Part shown: piece after piece, positions 28,751 to 35,816 of the stretch
Position numbering within the stretch: position 1 is the stretch's first letter
Layout of the letters: every line of letters begins with the position of its first letter
Assembly (NCBI GenBank): GCA_030432235.1
Contig: JAUIHT010000003.1
Coordinates: 62,001 to 126,000, forward strand
Origin: Verrucomicrobiia bacterium
GTDB lineage: Bacteria > Verrucomicrobiota > Verrucomicrobiia > Opitutales > Cerasicoccaceae
Direction of reading: 5' to 3'
DNA: 64,000 bases
Position numbers and translations under genes: made by a program
The notes under the pieces: generated by a model
What the model was told of the DNA's origin: nothing
The model's input: the letters and a program-made list of their open reading frames with translations, nothing else
Database searches by the model: none

Positions 28751-29356
28751 GTGAAAATAAAAACCATACTACTCACTGTCGCAGCCAGCAGTCTGTTCCT
28801 CGCGCAAGCAGCCCTTGGGGTCGTCAATGTGACTTTCACCGGCGGCGGAGGCTCCCCTGTCAGCTTCACATTGCCCGAGATTAGCTGGGAAATCACCAAC
28901 TCGGCGGGCTTCAACGGCGCGACCACTTTTGGAATCGGCGTAGATGTCAATCAAACCCCGGAAAACGCTACTTCGGGAGCAAGTATTGGCGGTAATCCCA
29001 GCGCGTGGTCCAGTACGGGCGCCACCACCTTTCCCGGCACTGCTTCGAGCAGCTTTTTTCGCAACAATGACTTCGGCGGGGCCAACGACGGCGGCATCAT
29101 CTGGTTCGGCATGCTCAGCAACCAGGCCGCCGTAAACGGGGAAATCATCACCTACGCCGGTGGCACGCTCAGCAGCGGCAATCTGGTGCCTTACACTTAT
29201 ACCGATGGCGCCTATGACGTCTATCTTATCAGTATCATCAGCGGACAGGCAGTCACCGCGCCTGGAGTGGCCGTGCCCGAGCCCGGAGCCTGCGCCGCGC
29301 TTTTCGGTATCGGCGTGCTGGGGCTCGCCGCTTGGCGCAGAAAAGTTACCAAGTAG
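28751..29356 (+). CDS. PEP-CTERM protein (paralogue 1)
   Basis: The 201-residue protein has an N-terminal signal peptide (MKIKTILLTVAASSLFLAQAALG, GTG start) and the C-terminal sorting region [24 protein letters not shown]: a PEP motif, a hydrophobic helix and a basic tail. Such tails are recognised by exosortase, which is not in this window. After the signal peptide comes VNVTFTGGGGSPVSF, similar to the GG.G(T/S)P(L/V) start of the proteins at 29531 and 41188. Between is a Ser/Thr/Gly/Asn-rich, probably beta-rich body. A surface-exposed or matrix role is inferred from the family. Confidence 0.88.
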   Translation: MKIKTILLTVAASSLFLAQAALGVVNVTFTGGGGSPVSFTLPEISWEITNSAGFNGATTFGIGVDVNQTPENATSGASIGGNPSAWSSTGATTFPGTASSSFFRNNDFGGANDGGIIWFGMLSNQAAVNGEIITYAGGTLSSGNLVPYTYTDGAYDVYLISIISGQAVTAPGVAVPEPGACAALFGIGVLGLAAWRRKVTK

Positions 29357-29530
29357 CCAAGCAGAAGGCGCGCTTTATCATCATAGCGTGCTTGCTGACG
29401 TTGTTCGGCAAAATGCGGGCCATGCACCACTCATGATAAGAAAATAGGTGGAGTAGCACGCCAGGCGGCTTTGGGTTGACGTTCCGACGTTAATCATTAA
29501 TCTACTTACGCAGTACTTGACTGCCCTCCT

Positions 29531-30103
29531 ATGAAAATCAAAGCGCTTTTGCTCTCGGCCGTATGCGCGGTCTCTATTAATATTAGTCACGCCGCCATCG
29601 AGCTCAGTGTAAGCGGTGGAATCGGCACACCACTGACGATCGATATCGTGCAGGGTGACACCTTTACCAGCATCAATTCCAACAGCGGCGACTTCGGCTT
29701 ACTGTTTAAAGATTTCTGGAATAATACCCAATCGTCTTTCGACAACACTTCCACCACGAATACCCTGACCATGACAACGGCAACTGGCCCCTACTCAACC
29801 GGTGCCTTTATTGGCTTTGGTTTCACTGCCAATGACCTCGTCCTGGGCTTTACCGGTACCACCATAAACATCGGAGAGATGCTGACACTCGGCCCGGGTA
29901 CACGAACCACGACGAACAATCTTTCCTTGGACTACACTTCGGTAAATCCCACGGGCGACGTCCTTATTTTTGGCGATACTTTCAACGTCGTATCCGATAC
30001 CCTCACCTGGACAGCCGTCCCCGAGCCCGCGACCACCGCCACACTCTTCGGCCTGGGCATGCTGGGACTGGTCATCTGGCGCAGGACTAAGCGCGCAGCG
30101 TGA
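29531..30103 (+). CDS. PEP-CTERM protein (paralogue 2)
   Basis: A signal peptide (MKIKALLLSAVCAVSINISHA) leads to IELSVSGGIGTPLTIDIV, closely matching the start of the 41188 protein and similar to paralogue 1. The C-terminus is VPEPATTATLFGLGMLGLVIWRRTKR, a PEP-CTERM sorting tail. The body is rich in Thr, Ser and Gly and lacks Cys. It is the middle one of three consecutive PEP-CTERM genes and lies 174 bp after the first, so probably has its own promoter. Confidence 0.88.
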   Translation: MKIKALLLSAVCAVSINISHAAIELSVSGGIGTPLTIDIVQGDTFTSINSNSGDFGLLFKDFWNNTQSSFDNTSTTNTLTMTTATGPYSTGAFIGFGFTANDLVLGFTGTTINIGEMLTLGPGTRTTTNNLSLDYTSVNPTGDVLIFGDTFNVVSDTLTWTAVPEPATTATLFGLGMLGLVIWRRTKRAA

Positions 30104-30178
30104 GGCAGAAAAAAGGATTCGAAGCTTGTCCGTCCGGGCAGGATGGCTAAGCTTAAACGCCTAACTGCTATTTACCAT

Positions 30179-30745
30179 ATGGGATTCTTTAAACGCTTAC
30201 TCGCCACTGCTATCCTGGGTTCGTCCATTGCCTCTGCCGCGATGGAGGTGAGCCTCAACAATAATATACTCACCTTCACCTTTTTGCCGGAGCAATCTGC
30301 GCCGCTGGACCCGGGAGCGGCCTACTACACATCCAGCGACACGGGCAGCCTTCACTTCATTACCTGGACGGGTGGCGACGCGGGCGGCCTTTCCGTGAAC
30401 CTCCCGGTCATTTCCAATACCTTCATCGACAACACCGGAACGGCTGTGGCCGACGGACGCGTGCGGACACTACGCCTCGGCAGCGACAGCGTGGTTCTCG
30501 GCTTTGGCAACACCTTGACGGACTTTACCATCGCAGGCGGTAGCCTGACCCTTGATGCAACCGGGCGCGGCCTTGTCCTGCCGGAGGAAACCGTCTTCGG
30601 GTTCCTCGATGGCTCCAGCTACACCCCGGGCACGACCGGCACCACCGGCGAGCTCATCCCCGTCCCCGAGCCCTCAACCTACGCCGCCCTTTTCGGGCTG
30701 GGCGCGCTGGGGCTAGCCGCTTGGCGGCGGAAGTCAAAAGCCTGA
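30179..30745 (+). CDS. PEP-CTERM protein (paralogue 3)
   Basis: From ATG 30179 the product starts with [26 protein letters not shown] (signal peptide) and ends in [27 protein letters not shown], a PEP-CTERM tail. An upstream ATG at 30143 would add 12 residues. The body is different from paralogues 1 and 2. The last codons (for Lys-Ser-Lys-Ala and stop) are inside the left arm of the 7-bp tandem inverted repeat that follows, so the repeat has reached into the gene end. Confidence 0.82.
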
Positions 30746-32637: not shown

Positions 32638-32754
32638 AAGTGTGAAAGTAAAGAAACGGCGTAATAGCCCTCTTGCATCGGCACCAAGAAAAACCACATC
32701 TCCAAGCCTTCTAAAGGCTTGCGCAAACTGAAAATGGATACGATATAAGGCATT

Positions 32755-33774
32755 ATGTCTGGCGACTTGCCAAATACTACTGATTGGCTGCCGAAAAAAA
32801 CCTCCGATAGCATTGCGAAGGTTTTTCTGAATACCTGCAAAAATGTAGAGAAGGAACTACTGCTGAGACGCGCCTATGAAATGGAGTCTGGCGTTACCCC
32901 ATTCGACTCGGGTATTGCGTTTGAAGAAATCTTCAGGGAAGCCCTCAGTAAATTGCTCCCTAAACGCTACACGATTGCCTGTGGCACAGTGAATGATTCC
33001 AAAGGGTTTACCGCCGGAGACTGCGATGTCCTAATCTTTAATGACCTTTGGTTTTCAAAGGTGAAGGATTCTTTGGTTAAAGACTCTCGAAAAGTTATCT
33101 ACCCAATCGAAGGCATCTATGCGGTAGGTGAAGTAAAGCAGACACTGGGTAAACGCACTCTGGATCAAGCGATGGAAAAACTAGTCACTTGTCATCGCCT
33201 CCATCGCCCAAGAACAATGATGGATCGTACAGTAGAAAATCGAGAAGGCTCCAACTGCACACATGGATTGAGCAACCCGCTTTACTCGTTTGTATTTGCT
33301 GGTGGATTGGAGAAAGGAACGAGTATGGATGACTTAGTAGATCGTTTTGTCCACACCAATAGGTTGTTGAAGCGACTGGAAGTAATAAGATGCTTTTGTA
33401 TCTTAAACGAAGGCTGTCTTTATTGGAGTTGGTTTGATAGCGACGCAAGAGAGCTACGACCTGCATTATTCATGTTAGAAGACCTTTATGATGCTATAGT
33501 TCCTAGCTATGCGGTTCATAATGAACGCAACCCAGCTTTTCTGAGTCTTGTGATGAATCTTTTCTTGCACCTATATAAATCCGTCCTGGCACCAGAAGAT
33601 TGGGCAGTTAGCTATTCCTACAGCAGAGATAACCCACCCGACATAAAGGTTCCCAAAAGCCAAGAGCACTTACTTCCTCCAGATAAAGATTGGCTGGACC
33701 ATTTATCACGCCCTTGTGAACAAAAACATAGCATAAAAACCCGGGATAATGAGTTTATTCCTTGGCAACCATGA
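32755..33774 (+). CDS. DUF6602-like protein (nuclease-fold candidate)
   Basis: The first half resembles DUF6602: FEEIFREALSKLLPKRYTIACGTVND followed by DCDVLIFNDLWF and YPIEGIYAVGEVKQTL, where the spaced D and E-x-K residues fit a PD-(D/E)xK nuclease core. The rest is not recognised. At 339 residues it is the first of three tightly linked genes with AT-rich composition (one 60-bp stretch is 40% GC, against about 65% in the sdh genes). It overlaps the TcmP-like gene by 4 bp. A restriction-like or defence role is inferred from the fold and context only. Confidence 0.65.
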   Translation: MSGDLPNTTDWLPKKTSDSIAKVFLNTCKNVEKELLLRRAYEMESGVTPFDSGIAFEEIFREALSKLLPKRYTIACGTVNDSKGFTAGDCDVLIFNDLWFSKVKDSLVKDSRKVIYPIEGIYAVGEVKQTLGKRTLDQAMEKLVTCHRLHRPRTMMDRTVENREGSNCTHGLSNPLYSFVFAGGLEKGTSMDDLVDRFVHTNRLLKRLEVIRCFCILNEGCLYWSWFDSDARELRPALFMLEDLYDAIVPSYAVHNERNPAFLSLVMNLFLHLYKSVLAPEDWAVSYSYSRDNPPDIKVPKSQEHLLPPDKDWLDHLSRPCEQKHSIKTRDNEFIPWQP

Positions 33775-34625
33775 AGTACGTTACCCTACCTTCAGCTAGA
33801 ACTATTCCGTGGAAAGGAACGGTTTCTACTCTTGATGGATTACCCGTTCGGGAAAGCGGAGAGTATATCGACCAAAAACATAGTCGCCTTGAATATTACT
33901 CCAACATGTTCGCAGGCGGCATGAAAAACAAATGGCCAAACCGCGTATATTTGGAGCTATATGCAGGCCCTGGGCGCTGTAAAATTCGAGAAACTGGTAA
34001 AGAAGAGGTCGGTTCTCCACTTAAAGTTCTAGATCTTAATTTTACGCGATTTATATTTGTCGAGCGCGAAGAAGCACATGCCCAAGCTCTAGCTAAACGG
34101 ATAGAGAATCACCCAAGAGTTGAGGACGTAGAGATTTGGAATGGAGATAACTTCCAGGCTCTCGACCAAATTTCAATTCCTTCAACAAGGACACTTACCT
34201 TTAGCTTTGTCGACCCGACTGGTCTTGTGGAAATTAATCTGATAAAAAAACTAAAGCAAATTGCTGTTAAAGGCGACGTACTCATCAATTTGATGGACTC
34301 AATGGGCATAAAAATGAACTGGCACTATTATCGCAAATCGATCGGTTCGAATTGTAAACTGACACGTCTTCTCGGCTCAGACGAGTGGAAGGAATTCAGA
34401 GATCTAGACAGTCAGCAGGCAAACGCCAAGATACAAGAGTTGTTTAGAGCCAAGCTCGAAGCTTTAGGCTATTTGACTGAGGAATATAATGTTCCCGTCA
34501 TGATGAATGGCAACAATCAGCTTTATCGGTTAGTCTTTGCCGCAGGAGATCAATTGGGCATAAAATTCTGGCGTGCTGCAGTAAAAGGCACTACTCCTCA
34601 GACTGATTTTTTCGATCAACTATGA
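33771..34625 (+). CDS. three-Cys-motif partner protein TcmP-like
   Basis: The region HSRLEYYSNMFAGGMKNKWPNRVYLELYAGPGRCKI and the following FIFVEREEAHAQALAKRI, IWNGDNFQAL, LTFSFVDPTGL match the three-Cys-motif partner family, which has a methyltransferase-like nucleotide-binding core (LELYAGPG as the Gly-rich loop) of unproven activity. Its known partners carry three conserved Cys residues, as the next gene does. ATG 33771 overlaps the previous stop (ATGA); TTG 33762 is another possible start. It is coupled to the radical SAM gene by a second ATGA. Confidence 0.75.
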   Translation: MKYVTLPSARTIPWKGTVSTLDGLPVRESGEYIDQKHSRLEYYSNMFAGGMKNKWPNRVYLELYAGPGRCKIRETGKEEVGSPLKVLDLNFTRFIFVEREEAHAQALAKRIENHPRVEDVEIWNGDNFQALDQISIPSTRTLTFSFVDPTGLVEINLIKKLKQIAVKGDVLINLMDSMGIKMNWHYYRKSIGSNCKLTRLLGSDEWKEFRDLDSQQANAKIQELFRAKLEALGYLTEEYNVPVMMNGNNQLYRLVFAAGDQLGIKFWRAAVKGTTPQTDFFDQL

Positions 34626-35539
34626 CACCGATCAACAAATCTGCCTTATGGAAGAAGCGCCTGGGTGACTGGGTACTGAATCCGTACGTAGGCTGTGAGC
34701 ATGGCTGCAAGCATTGCTATTGCCCGGCCATGCCCGGTGTTAAATTCAGCAACCATGGCCGCACACAGGAAGAATGGGGCGCATACCTGTATCCGAAAGA
34801 TAATTTAGTGGCTTCCTTGCGGGAGCAACTGCGCAACTTTACTCCAGATAAAGCGAATGTAACCCGCTGGGGCGACGGTTGGTTGTTGATGTCATTTTTG
34901 ACCGATTGCTACACCCCCGCAGAGGCAAAACTCGGCTTAACACGTGAATGCCTGAAGCTCATCCTCGAAGCAGGCCATAAGGTTCGACTACAAACACGAT
35001 CACCGCTTATCGAGCGGGACTTTGATATTTTGAGGGCCCACCGTGACCAAGTGCTCGTTGGAACATCGCTTCCCTACCTGAGTGACAAGCTTGCACGTGT
35101 CTTGGAGCCGCGGGCACCATCGCCAAAGCGTCGCTTAAGAATGCTAGAGAAAGCTGTAGACGAAGGACTCGAAGTTTACGTAGCTATCGCACCGTTTATG
35201 CCTTTCCACGATCGCAAGGAAGTGGACAAAGTCCACGAAGTTATTCGACCCCTGCAACCACGGGAGGTATTCTGCGAAGTGCTGAATCCGAAAGGTAAAA
35301 ATATTGAGATGATGCGGTCAGCGCTAAAAGCGACCTATCCAGCACATTATGTGAGACTCAATAATTACACTCTCGAATACTGGGCAAAGTTTACATTCAA
35401 AGTGCTCAATTATGGAGTAAAAGAAGTAAATCGCTTCATTCCTTGGCCGGATACACAACAACTGTGGCGAAAGCACCTCCAAGCTGCACAGGTAAAATTT
35501 CTGGAATCATATCTTCCCGAAGAATTGCGTACTGTGTAA
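34622..35539 (+). CDS. radical SAM protein (SplB-like), partner of TcmP
   Basis: The radical SAM cluster motif CxxxCxxC is present as GCEHGCKHCYCP near residues 24-35, preceded by LNPYVG, the SPL/COG1533 arrangement. The core continues as LLMSFLTDCYTPAE, RLQTRSPL and VLVGTSLPY. The family includes spore photoproduct lyase, a DNA thymine-acting enzyme, but other substrates occur. It is translationally coupled to the TcmP-like gene (ATGA overlap). The probable pairing of this Cys-rich protein with TcmP supports a joint modification reaction. The target is unknown. Confidence 0.78.
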   Translation: MTPINKSALWKKRLGDWVLNPYVGCEHGCKHCYCPAMPGVKFSNHGRTQEEWGAYLYPKDNLVASLREQLRNFTPDKANVTRWGDGWLLMSFLTDCYTPAEAKLGLTRECLKLILEAGHKVRLQTRSPLIERDFDILRAHRDQVLVGTSLPYLSDKLARVLEPRAPSPKRRLRMLEKAVDEGLEVYVAIAPFMPFHDRKEVDKVHEVIRPLQPREVFCEVLNPKGKNIEMMRSALKATYPAHYVRLNNYTLEYWAKFTFKVLNYGVKEVNRFIPWPDTQQLWRKHLQAAQVKFLESYLPEELRTV

Positions 35540-35816
35540 TTTACAGGCCATTCGTTGGGCTTAACAAAACGGATGATTCCACGGGACAATTGGTCAGTTC
35601 CACGGAGCGAAAGGCAGATTGATCCACGCAGAAGGCCCGACAAGCACGCTTAATCTTAGCCATGCCACCGGCTAATAGTTAGGCCGGATTCCGCCTAGCA
35701 GACGCAGAGGTGCTTATTTATACTGGACAGCCGCCGCAGCATTACGAAAAGTTATAGACGGTGCCCGGCCTTTGGCCGCGCCAAACCCTCTGACTTAACC
35801 TGATTTTTCCTGACTT

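Follow-up and report, generated by a model that had tools for sequence, protein, structure and literature searches.

Operon layout and base composition

In the window, the whole 64,000-nucleotide stretch of DNA analysed here, three co-directional genes, called A, B and C, occupy a site with polX and sdhC as neighbours. The features of this site were as follows.

32755..33774, + strand: gene A, predicted DUF6602 / divergent NucC-family PD-(D/E)xK nuclease, 339 aa
33771..34625, + strand: gene B, TcmP (three-Cys-motif partner protein), 284 aa counted from the ATG
34622..35539, + strand: gene C, SPL/PA0069-like radical SAM enzyme, 305 aa, CxxxCxxC at C25/C29/C32
33771..33774, + strand: A/B stop-start overlap, ATGA
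34622..34625, + strand: B/C stop-start overlap, ATGA
32638..35816, no strand: low-GC segment between polX and sdhC, probably horizontally acquired, ends approximate

The A/B junction reads ...CCATGAAG and the B/C junction ...CTATGACA. Both are exact four-base ATGA overlaps at the positions given in an earlier note on this DNA (33771/33774 and 34622/34625), and the three genes are probably translationally coupled through them. The GC contents of genes A, B and C were 0.440, 0.429 and 0.490 (GC3 of 0.43, 0.40 and 0.50), against 0.61-0.65 (GC3 of 0.82-0.90) for the flanking polX, sdh and pyrG genes. At a GC content of 0.454 the 2,785-bp operon was the lowest of the 64-kb window, in which other stretches of 2,785 bp had a mean of 0.604 (sd 0.021, minimum 0.553). 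The lower GC content claimed in the earlier note was therefore found, at 45% versus 60%; its figures of 40% versus 65% came from 60-bp samples and did not hold.

Neither a mobility gene nor a tRNA was found at the operon ends among the neighbouring genes or by tRNA search, and searches for repeats and tRNAs marking the operon boundary gave none. Comparison of the insertion site with relatives made no empty site visible, since each relative examined has a different region upstream of sdhC. In nine other genomes of the family the gene B TcmP had no close relative (E<=1e-6), and those Cerasicoccaceae genomes listed in the class sample lacked DUF6602. Taken together, the foreign composition, the lack of a close TcmP relative and the lack of DUF6602 in the family make it likely, on sequence grounds, that the operon was horizontally acquired. 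Elsewhere in the window, at positions 28751-30745, three tandem small proteins carry a C-terminal VPEP...WRR(K/R), resembling the sorting tails of PEP-CTERM proteins.

Gene A encodes a predicted NucC-family nuclease

The gene A product matched DUF6602 (PF20247) at 2e-18 and, in a phmmer search, the Serratia and E. coli NucC structures at 6.7e-11; the NucC models of PADLOC matched as well, and on these matches DUF6602 is the NucC family. Its predicted structure had a pLDDT of 66 overall, with most of the core at 80-93. A Foldseek search with this model reached an E value of 1.8e-12, and all 14 PDB matches with E<=0.001 were NucC. Residues R71, D91, E126 and K128 are kept as the equivalents of NucC R53, D73, E104 and K106. 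The D, E and K that had been read as PD-(D/E)xK-like are thus in place, and structure prediction gives the NucC nuclease fold. On this model the protein is a divergent NucC homologue and a predicted PD-(D/E)xK nuclease; the earlier note had recognized the nuclease but had missed both the NucC homology and a changed threonine of the cA3 pocket.

That change is at L278, which stands where E. coli NucC has the cA3-contacting T226. Lau and colleagues are said to have described, in 2020, the roles of R53 and T226 in the NucC cA3 pocket. In a tree of 33 DUF6602 proteins gene A formed a long branch that falls outside the clade of CBASS NucC proteins (support 86/92), and in all 14 members of that clade both R53 and T226 were kept. 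No cyclase, HORMA, TRIP13 or Cas10 gene was found beside the operon, no match to a SMODS cyclase was found in the whole genome, and a search of the genome, run without a positive control, found no homologue of the cyclase from one of the CBASS loci described below (L030). A CBASS reading of the operon was rejected, no cyclase having come up in these searches and the pocket threonine being changed. Loss of the T226 equivalent and the lack of an adjacent cyclase also make control of the nuclease by its operon partners or its substrate likelier than control by cA3.

DUF6602 adjoins a CBASS cyclase at L008 and L030. Outside CBASS, a 544-aa DUF6602 protein (L034, 4900-6531) was found between methylase and ResIII genes in a type III restriction locus. 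Scans of viral sequences with gene A alone and with gene B alone gave no matches, and a literature search on DUF6602 and DUF5131 found no paper.

Gene B encodes a TcmP protein with a predicted methyltransferase fold

The gene B product matched the TcmP family TIGR04474 at 4.5e-29 and 102 bits (curated cut-off 53), and its predicted structure (pLDDT 93) is a class I SAM methyltransferase fold, so its earlier assignment as a TcmP with a methyltransferase-like core was upheld. The best Foldseek match of the model was RlmJ (E 1.4e-8), and VIA-align gave Z scores of 14-15 for Trm1 and RlmJ, a level at which many methyltransferases tie. By its model, then, gene B encodes a class I SAM methyltransferase fold that is nearest to RlmJ/Trm1. 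In the glycine-rich motif I of TcmP, G66 is invariant and G68 nearly so. Motif IV reads DPTG in gene B and DPFG in the TcmP consensus, and the D/N-P-P-Y/F/W of N6A/N4C amino-methyltransferases was not seen; base methylation by TcmP consequently stays putative. No paper giving a function to TcmP or to its radical SAM partner was found in a literature search.

Gene C encodes a radical SAM enzyme

The gene C product matched Radical_SAM (PF04055) at 7e-14, with C25, C29 and C32 forming the CxxxCxxC motif. The best curated models were those of the PA0069 family (4e-34) and of the radical SAM mobile pair B, all below cut-off, which corrects the earlier assignment to the SplB type. An identity as a mobile-pair-B enzyme (TIGR04470) was set aside, the score being far below cut-off. 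Against Gp37/Gp68 (DUF5131, PF07505) gene C scored 12.2 bits and did not reach the gathering score of 28.9. In an alignment of the gene C subfamily (A5), which contains no SPL, no cysteine outside the cluster, as would be expected for the hydrogen donor of an SPL, was invariant. Gene C is described as SPL-like, its identity as an SPL being putative.

A solo relative of gene C (60% identity) was observed without TcmP on a 47.5-kb phage contig (L048, 4983-5942; IMG/VR UViG_3300043503_000001), where its neighbours are a DnaB helicase, a DNA transposition protein and a DNA methyltransferase. Solo relatives (58%) were also seen in Limisphaerales (L057/L058). Counter-defence or a separate phage use is possible for the solo phage gene.

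The B-C pair is conserved and the trio is not

A genome-wide scan with gene C yielded 77 loci, in which gene B was then sought with an iterated TcmP profile. Gene B adjoined gene C in 60 of the 77, from Verrucomicrobiota, cyanobacteria and haloarchaea. By this count the pair is real, in agreement with the earlier statement that TcmP pairs with a Cys-motif partner; judged from gene neighbourhoods, its conservation is robust and extends over several bacterial phyla and the haloarchaea. At the haloarchaeal loci L010, L051, L063 and L069 a single TcmP gene is accompanied by two distinct radical SAM genes lying next to each other.

None of the 77 gene C loci contained gene A, and no TcmP lay beside DUF6602 among about 36 other DUF6602 loci; at the 18 class-level DUF6602 loci L198-L215, about 1.5 kb of flank was covered. 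The exact A-B-C trio was likewise found at none of about 80 other TcmP loci, and 23 TcmP loci from an even phylum sample, further to the 77 gene C loci, did not have it. With no gene A at B-C loci and no TcmP at other DUF6602 loci, the trio has to date been seen in this genome alone. The conserved three-gene association across genomes, whose absence the earlier note had itself named as counting against its reading, was therefore not borne out: among the loci examined, DUF6602 lies next to TcmP only here.

Many TcmP-radical SAM pairs, above all those of cyanobacteria, have no recognised nuclease adjoining. In many filamentous cyanobacteria the pair is solitary, and at L090 it is next to a murF-like gene. 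The basic function of the pair therefore need not be defence.

Nuclease and defence genes adjoin related pairs

The nearest orthologues of gene C (66-68% identity) come from Verrucomicrobia assemblies, with TcmP overlapping gene C or adjoining it directly upstream. At L053, L054 and L056 the pair is flanked by gyrB and gyrA, and the cargo gene that follows gene C downstream is another one each time: HSDR_N at L053, GmrSD_N/HNH at L056, and a protein without family assignment at L054. HEPN genes overlap TcmP upstream at L053 and L054 (Pfam), and L056 has a similar open reading frame. An HNH_2 nuclease lies directly upstream of the pair at L118; the same MAG also has, downstream of the pair at L059, a Vsr-like gene (a weak match, below cut-off); and at L055 no recognised nuclease was found within the stretch examined. 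The gyrB-gyrA interval, holding the pair and variable nuclease-like cargo in several Verrucomicrobia, resembles a hotspot where defence genes integrate.

The closest TcmP to gene B, at 45% identity, is that of L180, which has as neighbours a LexA-like repressor, a second TcmP-like gene, a Gp37/68-type radical SAM gene, a PLD-SNF2 helicase and an Eco57I-type methylase. Eco57I-type genes adjoin TcmP at L172 and L175 of the even phylum sample as well as at L180, and HsdR adjoins it at L161, L166 and L168 of that sample. Further neighbours of TcmP in that sample are DUF1156 (L173), NACHT/nSTAND proteins (L164, L167) and Abi_2 (L160), and DarT adjoins it at L175. A putative transcription unit listed for S. 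meliloti combines a TcmP gene with hna, a gene of phage defence (PMC12445080). LexA-like repressors, combining an S24 peptidase with a LexA DNA-binding domain, were found at three TcmP-radical SAM loci (L123, 4034-4678; L164, 10194-10832; L180, 4669-5286), which suggests damage-linked control.

With all queries, restriction-modification homologues were present at 6 of 23 TcmP loci and at 3 of 33 control loci from the same genomes (one-sided p = 0.09). The three control matches were all to helicase queries and would disappear if helicase-only queries were dropped, but that choice would be post hoc. The enrichment, short of significance, is weak support for a link and does not prove it. The earlier proposal of a modification pair with a nuclease survives in part: the pairs repeatedly adjoin nucleases or restriction genes, but the nuclease changes from locus to locus and the trio is not conserved.

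Discussion

We give roughly even chances to the reading that the operon was gained by horizontal transfer as a cassette against invaders, in which a conserved TcmP-radical SAM core is combined with a replaceable nuclease, here a divergent member of the NucC family. Such a mobile core with a swappable nuclease is probably restriction-like and aimed at invading nucleic acid. We infer the enzyme activities, the target and the defence role of the operon as follows. TcmP would bind SAM as well as a nucleic acid, and its radical SAM partner would act on the target of TcmP, so that the pair might modify DNA or RNA, or read or reverse a lesion on it. The nuclease might cut nucleic acid that lacks or carries the mark, or might be set free once the pair encounters nucleic acid of an invader; its operon partners or its substrate are more likely than cA3 to govern it. 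Caution on the defence reading is warranted because many cyanobacteria have the pair on its own and a relative of gene C (60% identity) occurs solo on a phage contig.

A broader proposal is offered tentatively and is, in our view, less probable: TcmP and its radical SAM partner may be the modification or sensing module of an undescribed immune class that recruits interchangeable nucleases, with the NucC-type nuclease working here without cyclic-oligonucleotide signalling. Many genomes have annotated genes for TcmP and its radical SAM partner, and the pattern of one core with many nucleases makes their function testable. If the proposal is true, the NucC fold has escaped cA3 control and an annotation as DUF6602 or NucC means more.

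Among the alternatives, the one that survives best is that TcmP and the radical SAM enzyme are a nucleic-acid repair or RNA-modification pair outside defence and that the upstream nuclease is a chance neighbour. We consider this rather unlikely. It would suit a widespread pair that is often solitary in filamentous cyanobacteria and has a murF-like neighbour at L090, the LexA-like repressors adjoining three loci, the resemblance of TcmP to rRNA and tRNA methyltransferases, and the solo relative of gene C (60%) carried by a phage; a chance neighbour would not be expected to share an ATGA overlap and a foreign composition with the pair, and different nucleases adjoin the nearest relatives. It is also unlikely that the operon confers signal-gated abortive infection, with a NucC-like suicide effector answering to a small molecule from the TcmP-radical SAM pair or from a cyclase elsewhere. 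NucC homologues in the DUF6602 family serve as effectors of CBASS or type III systems and are activated by cA3, gene A keeps the R53 equivalent, and DUF6602 lies beside a CBASS cyclase at L008 and L030, but the T226 position, threonine throughout the 14-member CBASS NucC clade, is leucine in gene A, and the searches for cyclase genes (SMODS in the genome; the L030 homologue, without positive control) and for cyclase, HORMA, TRIP13 and Cas10 genes beside the operon were negative. Most improbable is an addiction cassette in which the nuclease is the toxin and B-C the antidote, keeping a mobile element with no anti-phage role, which would account for a single foreign cassette in the chromosome and for nine other family genomes without a close relative of its TcmP, but has against it the absence of a mobility gene or tRNA beside the operon and the many genomes with the pair and no recognised nuclease.

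Among known systems, NucC, an effector of CBASS and type III CRISPR, shares with the gene A product the PD-(D/E)xK fold over nearly its full length, the catalytic D, E and K, and the R53 equivalent. Gene A differs in having only 19-20% identity by structural alignment, in its long branch outside the CBASS clade, in the change of T226 to Leu, in a C-terminal extension and in the lack of an adjacent cyclase. The CD-NTase gene that stands next to the effector in CBASS was not seen here, the operon neighbours being polX and sdhC. Spore photoproduct lyase and PA0069-type enzymes share the CxxxCxxC radical SAM core with gene C, which falls below all family cut-offs and whose subfamily alignment (A5) shows no invariant cysteine outside the cluster. 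Restriction-modification loci with DUF6602 or TcmP (type III at L034; type I at L161, L166 and L168; IIG-like at L172, L175 and L180) place a methyltransferase-fold protein beside a nuclease, as here, whereas the window operon is without a classical DNA methyltransferase or specificity subunit. Gene B matches the model of PDC-M41A, a phage-defence candidate in PADLOC, at 2e-13; that system is a candidate only, and the match covers one component, with the nuclease outside it. TcmP genes with a radical SAM or Gp37/Gp68 partner are a known counterpart of the core, gene B scoring about twice the family cut-off with its partner gene adjoining. Unlike those pairs, the pair in the window has a NucC-like nuclease gene overlapping it, an arrangement that none of the other loci searched showed.
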